Source: a bacterium (lineage in GTDB: Bacteria > UBP14 > UBA6098 > 4484-93). Taken from it: a stretch of 32,201 nucleotides of DNA. Below, one piece after another: positions 27,949 to 32,201 of this stretch (position 1 is the stretch's first letter; every line of letters starts with the position of its first letter). The position numbers and the translations under genes were made by a program. Location: contig JAGGUN010000008.1 of the NCBI GenBank assembly GCA_021158465.1, positions 1-32,201 of the forward strand, given 5' to 3'. The notes under the pieces were generated by a model. It saw only the letters and a program-made list of their open reading frames with translations, did not search any database and was not told the origin of the DNA.

Positions 27949-28008
27949 TTAAGCAGACGACATTTTGCTTGGTGAAATCTAAAATAGATGAATGGAGGGA
28001 TAAATAAT

Positions 28009-28620
28009 ATGAATATTCCAAATCGTGAAGAATTTCTTAAAGGTTGCGAGGAATTTGAAAAACATGAGAAGCGTGATGCTATGTACAAAGTAGCAACTTT
28101 CCTTGTATCCCATTTTTGGGGTAGACCTTCGGATATGGCAGACGGGTTAGGTGTATTGTTGCTAACATGGAATCAGGCATTTTATAGATATGGAATTTTC
28201 GATTTCGATAAACTGGAGGGGTGTATAGCTGACAATTTCCAAAAAATTGAAAACTTCAGGAATAGAGACATTTCGAGCTTATCAAATTCCGATGAGGATG
28301 ATATAAGGGATTTATTCAACAGGTTTCTTGAGGCTTTACAAATCAATTCAGGAAAAATGCAGGGAAGAAAAAGCCCCGTGGCAGTGGCTAAAACTTTGCA
28401 TCTTTTAGCTCCTAACTTCTTTCCTCTGTGGGACGATAAGATTGCACGAGCTTATGGGTGCTACTATAACCCAAACCCTACTGAAAAATATATTTCATTC
28501 TGCAAGATTACAAAATCCATTGCAGATAAAGTTAAATGTTACATCGGTCGATCAGATAAAACGCTCACTAAATTAATAGACGAATATAATTATCCGAAAT
28601 ATACGCAAGGATGGATTTAG
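28009..28620 (+). CDS. AT-rich orphan gene, mostly helical protein of unknown function
   Basis: A 203-residue cytosolic protein without signal peptide. I place the start at ATG 28009, nine bases after a GGAGGGA site; an earlier ATG (27988) has no such site. Notable conserved-looking phrases are GLGVLLLTWNQAFYRYGIFDFDKLEG and KSPVAVAKTLHLLAPNFFPLWDDKIARAYG. The pattern resembles uncharacterised helical proteins, possibly with helix-hairpin-helix-like DNA-binding folds, but I cannot name a family. Codon use and base composition are clearly more AT-rich than the surrounding genes, and it lies between a nine-base direct repeat (27875-27883, 28616-28624). Acquired by transfer is likely. Function unknown; neighbouring restriction genes make a DNA-related role possible but unproven. 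Confidence 0.7.
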   Translation: MNIPNREEFLKGCEEFEKHEKRDAMYKVATFLVSHFWGRPSDMADGLGVLLLTWNQAFYRYGIFDFDKLEGCIADNFQKIENFRNRDISSLSNSDEDDIRDLFNRFLEALQINSGKMQGRKSPVAVAKTLHLLAPNFFPLWDDKIARAYGCYYNPNPTEKYISFCKITKSIADKVKCYIGRSDKTLTKLIDEYNYPKYTQGWI

Positions 28621-29491: not shown

Positions 29492-29959
29492 TTATCTTAT
29501 TTTAGGGGCAGAAAACTCCTCCGATAATCTGTCGTTATACTCATCTGCAACGAACGAGACCGCCTCAACTATATCGACCATATCCTCCTTCTCGATATTT
29601 TTCAGGCTCTTACTTGCTCCGACGGCAACGACATCCTCATAGACAAAGAATTTCACAGGTCCTATATAGTAATAATTGTTCAGTTCAAGCAGTCTGCGAT
29701 ACATCGGTAGGATAAGTTGCTTTTCTGTGGGGAAGCGGAGTATAGGTGAATATGCAGCGAACAGTCCCACCCCTTCTGCTTTGGAGCGGAGCAGTTCGAC
29801 ATTTATATATGCATTGCCATAACTTATTTCCCATCTGAAGCCGTTCTCCGTCTCGACTGACTCCGGTGTTTTATATCCGAGGGATACCAGAGCCTCATCA
29901 ACCATATCACGGTAGCGCTCAATCTTTTGAACGCGACTGCCAAAATGGAACCAGTTCAT
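29492..29959 (-). CDS. YbjN/type III secretion chaperone-like protein
   Basis: A 155-residue cytosolic protein with the alpha-beta-alpha plan of the YbjN/CesT-like fold: an N-terminal helix (RYRDMVDEALVSLGYKTPE), a curved sheet (FRWEISYGNAYINVELLRS, GVGLFAAYSPIL), a middle helix (MYRRLLELNNYYYIGPVKFFVYEDVVAVGA) and a C-terminal helix (DMVDIVEAVSFVADEYNDRLSEEF). Such proteins act as chaperones or regulators binding partner proteins. Its ATG overlaps the protease stop by four bases, so the two are probably made together and may interact. The fold call rests on pattern alone, so moderately sure. Confidence 0.68.
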   Translation of the reverse strand: MNWFHFGSRVQKIERYRDMVDEALVSLGYKTPESVETENGFRWEISYGNAYINVELLRSKAEGVGLFAAYSPILRFPTEKQLILPMYRRLLELNNYYYIGPVKFFVYEDVVAVGASKSLKNIEKEDMVDIVEAVSFVADEYNDRLSEEFSAPKIR

Positions 29960-30804
29960 TTCTCCTCCTTAAAGAGTGCGACCCCACAGTAAGGGCAATA
30001 CTTCTTCCCTTCGGGGCTGAAGCGGTTGTGACACACAGGACATTCTATTTCGCCACCGGGCGGCTGTGTCGGACTGCTTTCAAGCTTCTTGTAACTCTTC
30101 CATCTTTCTTTTATCTCCGGTATCATATACCCGTCATATGGACAGAAACGGGTTTTCTCCATAAGCATTACGCCGCAAACAGGACAGTAAGAAAGTTTAT
30201 CCAGCAGGATGTTGAAATTGAGTTTCAGAAGAGATTTATAGTCCTGCTCGACGCAACCGACGGGCAGAGCAAAGCCAAAGTTTTCCGCACGCAGTTTCGA
30301 TGTGTTAATACCGATGAATTTTCCATCATCGGTCACAAGCGGACCACCGGAGCTACCAGGGTTAAGCGGTGCGGTCAGCTGGATGTAGAACACACCTTCG
30401 AGTTCAAGGGATGGGTTACCGACTATCCCCTGTGAAACGACGCTTGCAAGCCCAAGCGGATAACCAAGCGCAATAACAGATTCCCCTGCTTTCACATCAA
30501 AGCTAAAAGCGGGCTCGAGGAAAACAGGCTTTGTCTTCAAAAGCGCCTCATAATTTACAACAAGGAAAGCGTAATCGTATTTTCTGTCAGAAAGGAGAAC
30601 CTTCCCGCGGAGTTCGATGTTGTTATAGAGCAGGACAGAGACGATCTGCTCAGTCCCCACGACATGACGGTTGGTCAGTATAAGCCCACGAGGGTCGACA
30701 ATCGTCCCGGAGCCCGAGCTTGTCGGGGTCTTTATCATAACGATTGCTTTGCTCGTCCTCTCAACGAGCGATTCCAGAGATTCACTCTTCTTAGCCAATT
30801 CCAC
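29956..30804 (-). CDS. cytosolic trypsin-like (S1C) serine protease with two C-terminal zinc ribbons
   Basis: A 282-residue protein starting with GTG, behind a GGAA site. Residues 15-185 are an HtrA-type protease domain with a full catalytic triad: H47 (TNRHVV), D77 (KYDYAFLVV) and S152 (NPGSSGGPL). There is no signal peptide or membrane segment and no PDZ domain, so unlike DegP/DegS it should work in the cytosol. The C-terminus carries two zinc ribbons: C207, C210, C221 and D224 (CPVCG, CPYDG), and C255, C258, C270, C273 (CPVCH, CPYCG). One ligand of the first is aspartate. Zinc ribbons probably bind a partner or nucleic acid. Sits between the restriction operon and the YbjN-like gene, overlapping the latter by four bases. 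Substrate unknown. Confidence 0.85.
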   Translation of the reverse strand: MELAKKSESLESLVERTSKAIVMIKTPTSSGSGTIVDPRGLILTNRHVVGTEQIVSVLLYNNIELRGKVLLSDRKYDYAFLVVNYEALLKTKPVFLEPAFSFDVKAGESVIALGYPLGLASVVSQGIVGNPSLELEGVFYIQLTAPLNPGSSGGPLVTDDGKFIGINTSKLRAENFGFALPVGCVEQDYKSLLKLNFNILLDKLSYCPVCGVMLMEKTRFCPYDGYMIPEIKERWKSYKKLESSPTQPPGGEIECPVCHNRFSPEGKKYCPYCGVALFKEEK

Positions 30805-30949
30805 CTTCCGCTAAAATGATTGCCCCATCCTTACCAGAATACAGTCTCCTATTATCGGAATTGAATTCATACTTGACATCTAAGGAAAGGGATTCTATTG
30901 ATAATATTTTGTTCATTTCAGGTTTTAACTTTGCATCATCCTTCCACAT
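30791..30949 (-). CDS. possible 52-residue protein bridging the zinc-ribbon and protease genes
   Basis: An open frame of 52 codons that exactly fills the otherwise empty gap: ATG at 30947-30949 lies 14 bases inside the end of the zinc-ribbon gene, and its TAA at 30791-30793 lies 14 bases inside the start of the protease gene. A GGGG run three bases before the ATG could serve as ribosome site. The predicted protein starts MWKDDAKLKPEMNKILSIES and ends YSGKDGAIILAEGGIG; it is not recognised. Overlap at both ends suits the packed operon, but such a short frame can occur by chance. Confidence 0.38.
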   Translation of the reverse strand: MWKDDAKLKPEMNKILSIESLSLDVKYEFNSDNRRLYSGKDGAIILAEGGIG

Positions 30950-31118
30950 ATTCCCCGCAATAAGGGCAGGTAATAACTCCCATGTACTCTCTTTCTATGC
31001 CAAATTCATAATTACAATGTGGGCATTTGATCTTCGCACCTACGAAATAAAATTTTTCTTTGTCTAATTTCTTTAGTTCTTTTATAGTTAGTTTTATATC
31101 CTTCTCTTCTTTGTTCAT
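30936..31118 (-). CDS. 60-residue zinc-ribbon miniprotein
   Basis: A short protein with a lysine-rich helical start (KLTIKELKKLDKEKFYFVG) and a zinc ribbon formed by C32, C35, C51 and C54 (CPHC, CPYC). The four cysteines are spaced as in rubredoxin-like zinc knuckles, leaving little doubt that it is a real gene. It begins 16 bases after the nuclease-like gene stop; an AAGGAG lies 12 bases or so before the ATG, longer than ideal. AT-rich like the restriction genes upstream. It may be an accessory subunit of the restriction system or a regulator; the similar ribbons on the protease two genes away are notable. Confidence 0.68.
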   Translation of the reverse strand: MNKEEKDIKLTIKELKKLDKEKFYFVGAKIKCPHCNYEFGIEREYMGVITCPYCGEYVEG

Positions 31119-31134
31119 AATTTACATTCTCTCC

Positions 31135-31671
31135 TTATTCATAATACTTATTTAAGATATGACAATGAGTTCCGTTATATTCTTTCCTTATTCTATATTT
31201 CGTTGTTTCACCCTTTGTATAATATATCAACTGAATATCCGAAATGGGTCCTGCTACCTTGCCCGAAATAAATTTTAGGATGTTATGCTCTTTAATATAT
31301 TCAAATTTGGTGCAATAAAGATGTTCTAATATGCCTCTTTTTTTGAGCCTTTCAATTACAGAAGCACTACATAACCATGTGCCATCCATATTTGGATTGG
31401 ATAAATTAGTTTTGATATTTACATAAACAGTTTCGCCTTCCAAATCAATAATAATCACATCATAGCCACTCCAACTACCGTATTTCACATTATCTTTTCC
31501 AAAAAAGTCGATGGTAAAACTAATTACATTTTTTTCAATAACATCAGAGAGTGTTCTTGATGAAAGCTCAATATTATATTTTCCTGCTGTAGTTGTAAGT
31601 TTCTTGCTATTCAAATAATCTTTACATTTTAAGCAAAACTCTTTTAGTTTCTTTTTCGTTTTGTTTTTCAT
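31135..31671 (-). CDS. probable restriction endonuclease (PD-(D/E)XK-like)
   Basis: A 178-residue AT-rich gene product directly downstream of an HsdS-like protein, overlapping it by four bases. The core reads YGSWSGYDVIIIDLEGETVYVNIKT (residues 64-88): a first acidic residue (D71) on one strand and, after a turn, V-N85-I-K87 on the next, resembling the D-x(n)-(D/E)xK centre of PD-(D/E)XK nucleases but with asparagine where glutamate or aspartate is usual. D76 or E80 might substitute. The N-terminus is lysine-rich with four cysteines or so, and there is no export signal. I read it as the cleaving partner of a restriction-modification pair; the exact family is not recognised. Confidence 0.55.
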   Translation of the reverse strand: MKNKTKKKLKEFCLKCKDYLNSKKLTTTAGKYNIELSSRTLSDVIEKNVISFTIDFFGKDNVKYGSWSGYDVIIIDLEGETVYVNIKTNLSNPNMDGTWLCSASVIERLKKRGILEHLYCTKFEYIKEHNILKFISGKVAGPISDIQLIYYTKGETTKYRIRKEYNGTHCHILNKYYE

Positions 31672-32201
31672 CGGGAGGTTTCTTGTAAAATCTTTTCCAA
31701 ATCAATTATTAAATTCTTAGTTTTTATTTTACATATAGATAAGTCTTTGCCATTAAAAATATTAAACCTGTATTCTCTCAAAATTTCTTCATATTTATTG
31801 CCTATCTCTTTCTGGATTTCTGTGGAAACAACAGGAATAGGTAAAGACAAAAGATCTTTTTTGTTTATACTCACAGTTCCAACTCCGTGTTTCAAAATAT
31901 TTATGGAATCTTTACCAAATCTTGATTTGAGATAGATAACAAGGAAATAAGGATTGATTTTTTTCACCCTAAAAATATGAATGTAATCGGTTGCTACTCC
32001 TTCATTTTCTTCAGCATCAACGATAGCAACTCTACCAGCACAACCGACACCGACTCTCACAAACAAAATATCCCCAACCTTTGCATAAGCATTTGGAAAA
32101 TTCATCTTGCTTGAAGGATCGATAAACCTTTCATCTCTTTTATAGTTAATACCAATTTCAGTGATATTTGTAGCATGAAGGAATCTTAAACCCTTATCAG
32201 C
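31668..32201 (-). CDS. HsdS-like target-recognition domain, C-terminal part (5' end beyond the window)
   Basis: The frame is open from the right edge, so the gene starts outside; 177 residues are visible. They begin ADKGLRFLHATNITEIGI, the standard entry of a type I restriction target-recognition domain. AYAKVGDILFVRVG, GCAGRVAIVD, TDYIHIFRV, INPYFLVIYLKSRFG, GVGTVSINKKDLLSLPIPV and a C-terminal helix QKEIGNKYEEI follow, all typical of HsdS half-subunits. The C-terminus then ends within 50 residues rather than starting a second recognition domain, so this is probably the specificity end of a methylase-specificity fusion (type IIG-like) rather than a full HsdS. AT-rich. Overlaps the nuclease-like gene by four bases. 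Confidence 0.8.
   Translation of the reverse strand, partial: ADKGLRFLHATNITEIGINYKRDERFIDPSSKMNFPNAYAKVGDILFVRVGVGCAGRVAIVDAEENEGVATDYIHIFRVKKINPYFLVIYLKSRFGKDSINILKHGVGTVSINKKDLLSLPIPVVSTEIQKEIGNKYEEILREYRFNIFNGKDLSICKIKTKNLIIDLEKILQETSR

Follow-up and report, generated by a model that had tools for sequence, protein, structure and literature searches.

The window (the whole stretch of DNA analysed here, a complete 32,201-bp contig from a 2.04-Mb draft genome) encodes an HtrA-type serine protease and, directly coupled to it, a small protein with a TY-chaperone fold. Since the same two parts are fused within one polypeptide in distant bacteria, they very probably work together. Judging from the sequences, we consider it reasonably probable that they form a two-component protease of the HtrA type which acts inside the cell and recruits its substrates through the TY domain instead of a PDZ domain. 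The original prediction had treated the protease gene and its chaperone-like neighbour as one functional unit, a view now strongly supported by fusions in two groups and by a split pair in a member of the Spirochaetales.

Table 1. Coordinates of the module, its parts and associated genes
Feature	Position	Strand	Basis
HtrA-type (Trypsin_2) serine protease, 282 aa, predicted cytosolic	29956..30804	-	ORF, residues, Pfam, NCBIfam, PDB matches
Zinc ribbon 1 of protease (C207, C210, C221, D224)	30130..30189, approximate	-	sequence; Pfam zinc-ribbon matches 206-223
Zinc ribbon 2 of protease (C255, C258, C270, C273)	29970..30054, approximate	-	sequence; Pfam DZR 252-274
TY-chaperone partner (type III secretion chaperone/YbjN fold), 155 aa	29492..29959	-	ORF, Pfam, AF2, Foldseek
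AT-rich restriction-type genes, judged outside the module	30936..32201	-	Methylase_S 3e-9; PADLOC MTase_II 2.2e-30
Upstream TY-helical gene, L042	379-1482		
Upstream TY-helical gene, L074	4789-5991		
Upstream TY-helical gene, L071	562-1914		
Upstream TY-helical gene, L076	1174-2508		
Upstream TY-helical gene, L103	4676-5992		

The protease gene begins with a GTG codon at position 30804, and an in-frame stop codon lies 9 nt upstream of it. The protease domain occupies residues ~28–195 (Pfam Trypsin_2, 1.2e-24) and, as had been claimed, carries an intact catalytic triad (H47/D77/S152), which we confirmed by checking the residues. The closest solved structures are HtrA and HTRA1, with a match to the HtrA structure 1l1j (2.4e-22), and the NCBIfam model degP_htrA_DO matches with 1.4e-33 over residues 28–194 only, far under the family cut-off. 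HtrA proteases mostly act outside the cytosol, and the PDZ domains of the known members recruit and position substrates. The claim that the window protease has neither a signal peptide nor a PDZ domain proved correct: hydrophobicity analysis according to Kyte–Doolittle detected no hydrophobic segment, signal peptide or membrane anchor at the N-terminus (maximum 19-residue mean of 1.06 within the first 60 aa), Pfam found no PDZ domain, and the C-terminus is filled by zinc ribbons. The features of the S1C family are accordingly divided, the chymotrypsin-fold domain with its His-Asp-Ser triad being present while the PDZ domain and the export signal or anchor are absent. Two zinc ribbons had been announced. 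This holds for ribbon 2, which is complete with four Cys residues (Pfam DZR, 3.4e-6, residues 252–274), but ribbon 1 has only three, followed by Asp224 at the fourth ligand position ('CPVC...CPYD'). This genome also encodes an ordinary HtrA of 502 aa, in whose sequence we recognise a hydrophobic stretch at the N-terminus as well as PDZ-like repeats; the protein studied here is therefore not the general Do protease of that genome. By its predicted properties it is an extra, cytosolic HtrA paralogue.

The ORF coordinates bear out the four-base overlap between the reading frames of protease and partner. Pfam matched the partner to TY-Chap1 with 2.8e-5 and 24.2 bits, under the family cut-off of 27. 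An AlphaFold2 model computed from a seven-sequence alignment reached a pLDDT of 87.2, and a Foldseek search with this model returned 2plg (Tll0839) as the best hit (E 5.2e-10), followed by SpcU, ExsC, CesT, E. coli YbjN, SycT, SycE and DR1245. A profile of the partner family matches the structure 2plg also by sequence (2.1e-14). The modelled fold has the layout of the TY superfamily, with a helix, a beta-meander and helices placed against a single face of the sheet. Taken together, the model, the Foldseek search and the profile match identify the partner, at the level of its predicted fold, as a TY-chaperone of the type III secretion chaperone/YbjN kind, which agrees with its earlier description as YbjN/chaperone-like.

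Strong support for a functional link comes from relatives in which the two parts are joined. With the window protease as query we retrieved a 362-aa single-chain trypsin-ribbon-TY protein from an unrelated bacterial family, with orthologues in two further species of the same genus (loci L012, L042 and L043, one family). A second search, of named genomes, used as queries protease-ribbon sequences without any TY region; it recovered fusions in Aquimarina (L074), Saprospiraceae (L072, L076 and L103) and Chitinophagaceae (L071), as well as the split pair in a Spirochaetales genome (L070). A protease-only tblastn of plasmid records yielded another fusion in Bernardetia (L260), and a partial fusion is present at a contig end (L079). 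Several families share one domain order, from trypsin through zinc ribbon to TY, the triad positions are invariant in all eight aligned fusions, and the protease part of the fusion matches HtrA/DegS, its best match being DegS without the PDZ domain. C-terminal ribbons occur in 13 of the 219 distinct HtrA-like proteases from all fetched loci. Of these 13, 12 have a TY domain in the same chain or in an adjacent gene, compared with none of the other 206 HtrA-like proteases, although the ribbon proteases are few and related, so that the former ratio does not stand for 13 independent events. This distribution, the fusion of three parts in a constant order in several families, the second split pair and the four-base overlap make it very improbable that the window merely places an HtrA paralogue next to a YbjN-like gene unrelated to it. 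Such a chance arrangement, largely refuted by the fusions already, could draw on the low direct sequence identity between the window TY protein and the fused TY domains (19–24%) and on one genome (G063) in which a ribbon protease and a TY gene are both present without being adjacent.

This genome is also where linkage, otherwise maintained by fusion or adjacency, breaks down. Its TY protein is 63% identical to that of the Spirochaetales. Linkage across a contig break was considered for G063 and rejected: the two contig ends do not overlap and the protease gene has a divergent gene on its upstream side, and for these reasons we count the pair as unlinked. In a tree of the protease domains the ribbon proteases cluster (2 label changes versus 12.2 in shuffles) and a single ribbon clade is not rejected (p-AU 0.854), while the position of the window and L070 proteases beside non-ribbon proteins is unresolved. 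The module is rare and patchy. Among 386 spread genomes it was found only in the window genome and in three genomes of one family, and none of the 16 further genomes that share the class of the window has it, including one of the same genus (80% complete). A plasmid or viral home of the pair was rejected, as the window TY protein had no match in the plasmid collection and the virus-contig matches of the window protease are HtrA-like proteins that carry neither ribbons nor a TY domain.

Members of the same TY family are also found as solitary genes without such a protease, in cyanobacterial-type genomes among others, and the TY fold is thus not dedicated to proteolysis. Other arrangements were seen within the window's class. 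In two species, TY is fused C-terminally to a large membrane protein with repeats (L005 1387-3381, and L006); in another family the TY gene keeps a conserved order with a gene for an MBL-fold hydrolase and one for an SH3-type lipoprotein, without the protease (L007, L010 and L011).

In most fusion loci for which the upstream region is available, a second TY gene lies directly upstream of the fusion. These genes, found in Bacteroidota and in one other family, encode proteins of 368–459 aa with an N-terminal TY domain and an uncharacterised helical region; in L103 the TY call was made from position and resemblance only. The window has no TY-helical gene. Two further observations concern the surroundings of these loci. 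In the Spirochaetales genome, an AAA+ ATPase gene (L070 7849-9780) follows the split pair on the same strand after ~450 bp. The idea of an AAA ATPase as a conserved partner, prompted by this locus, was discarded because all that the window genome offers is a distant AAA match at another place. A small gene for a SemiSWEET-like membrane protein adjoins the fusion in one family (L042/L263) and is also found near the L070 split pair, which could be a coincidence.

We propose the following mode of action. The catalytic subunit would be an HtrA-type protease that has lost its export signal and PDZ domain and gained C-terminal zinc ribbons. The TY subunit would bind exposed segments of particular client proteins and deliver them to the protease, the role that the PDZ domain plays in DegP, DegQ and HtrA. 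The ribbons may serve as a docking or oligomerisation platform, and zinc or redox sensing is conceivable as well. The outcome in the cytosol would be quality control or a selective and regulated proteolysis, neither secretion nor restriction. The PDZ domain is absent and its position is taken, in cis or in trans, by a putative peptide-binding chaperone fold, so that client hand-over appears the most economical interpretation.

The main rival to an adaptor role, in our opinion an unlikely one but to be taken seriously, sees the TY protein as a regulator or guard which keeps the protease inactive or covers a segment of it until a signal arrives, perhaps a zinc or redox signal received via the ribbons. 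ExsC–ExsE and CesT–CsrA are regulatory pairings of the type III secretion chaperone fold, and ExsC and CesT are among the folds closest to the partner. A fusion would fit an intramolecular switch equally well. However, no inhibitory segment is marked in the sequences, and the second TY gene beside the fusion fits client handling at least as well. The fold is also known to bind unfolded segments of its partner, and the TY protein might then be a folding or protecting chaperone for the protease, or its substrate, with no part in the choice of clients. We regard this as very unlikely, given that mature fusions retain a covalent link for which a folding chaperone would have no need.

No evidence links the pair to the restriction-type genes beside it. 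The original prediction had the pair continuing the strand of a restriction operon and offered defence and local quality control as possible functions. The strand is indeed the same, but a gap of 131 bp separates the pair from the last restriction-side ORF, promoter-like sites (consensus matches only) are present inside this gap, and the GC content jumps from 45–49% in the pair and most flanking genes checked to 29–33% in the restriction genes. The block contains the target-recognition part of an S/methyltransferase gene cut by the contig end, a 178-aa gene without family match that overlaps by 4 bp and may encode the cognate nuclease, and, as a separate ORF, a zinc ribbon of 60 aa. The block looks like a later insertion. 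Another gene of the window looks foreign, a 210-aa gene (27988-28620) with 36.5% GC between genes of 48% GC and no significant Pfam, NCBIfam or PADLOC match.

The other copies all lie among housekeeping genes, and neither restriction nor other defence genes were found beside any of them. Their neighbours (named by our reading of the sequences where an annotated record was absent) include argF, thiN, DJ-1/ThiJ, pit and the SemiSWEET-like gene, then murG, cvpA and a dnaX-like gene, further rlmF, chaN, ubiA and a purF-type gene, and finally rpoN and gcvT. PADLOC run on ten neighbours, the TY-helical genes included, gave only generic AAA and GGDEF-type similarities. Since restriction genes adjoin the window copy only, and there with a distinct GC content, the defence reading rests on a single neighbourhood; a restriction link of the pair is not supported, and a defence island or restriction cassette was rejected on account of the housekeeping contexts and the base composition. 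The local quality-control option fits these contexts better.

It is accordingly improbable that the pair is an anti-phage or conflict effector, in which the TY protein would sense an invader protein and unleash the protease. Apart from the restriction-type genes adjoining it in the window, such a role would be in line with a weak similarity of the protease domain to RT-Protease_XI in PADLOC (2.9e-11), with the occurrence of TY-Chap families in ADP-ribose conflict systems (PMC9503650, where trypsin is unmentioned in the main text) and with the trypsin-like peptidases that recur as effectors, together with Trypco partners, in predicted NTP-dependent conflict systems (PMC7159879). The Trypsin plus Trypco1/Trypco2 and MoxR-vWA/VMAP systems likewise pair a trypsin-like protease inside the cell with a small protein closely coupled to it (PMC7159879). 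In the module, by contrast, the partner has the TY fold and not that of Trypco, there is no NTPase core and no effector array, and the surroundings are of the housekeeping type. Pfam scans of the genes adjoining the pair and of the scanned homologue neighbours detected no Trypco1/2, MoxR-vWA or related NTPase, nor was a GTPase partner seen. ARG/ADPr-centric systems also use TY-chaperone domains, and TY-Chap1-3 are proposed to bind modified or misfolded proteins (PMC9503650), but no ADP-ribose-handling genes were seen beside the module.

Compared with the HtrA/Deg proteases (S1C: DegP, DegQ, DegS, HtrA1/2), which supply its best solved matches, the module shares the protease fold, the triad and the motifs NPG(S/N)SGGP and GFA(L/I)P, yet it lacks the signal peptide, membrane anchor and PDZ domain and has zinc ribbons and a fused or separate TY domain instead. 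The partner and the C-termini of the fusions share their fold with TY-Chap1 (PF22551), YbjN (PF10722), the class I type III secretion chaperones and 2plg, with weak Pfam matches that stay under the cut-offs; unlike the known TY proteins, they are coupled to a protease and not to secretion effectors or ADP-ribose conflict genes. We found no description of an HtrA-ribbon-TY module in the open-access literature, where YbjN with trypsin or HtrA, ribbons with HtrA, Tll0839 and cytosolic HtrA gave nothing relevant. Tentatively, the module may represent an undescribed class in which a TY-fold adaptor serves a cytosolic HtrA-type protease, in trans or fused, with ribbons that dock or sense and, in Bacteroidota and one other family, a second, TY-helical adaptor.

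If this is true, the module would amount to a cytosolic protease that is guided by an adaptor and independent of ATP, and a branch of the HtrA family would have swapped its PDZ domain for a secretion-chaperone fold. A concrete function would also emerge for the YbjN/TY proteins, which are poorly understood. With fused versions present in culturable Bacteroidota such as Aquimarina and Bernardetia, this reading is directly testable.
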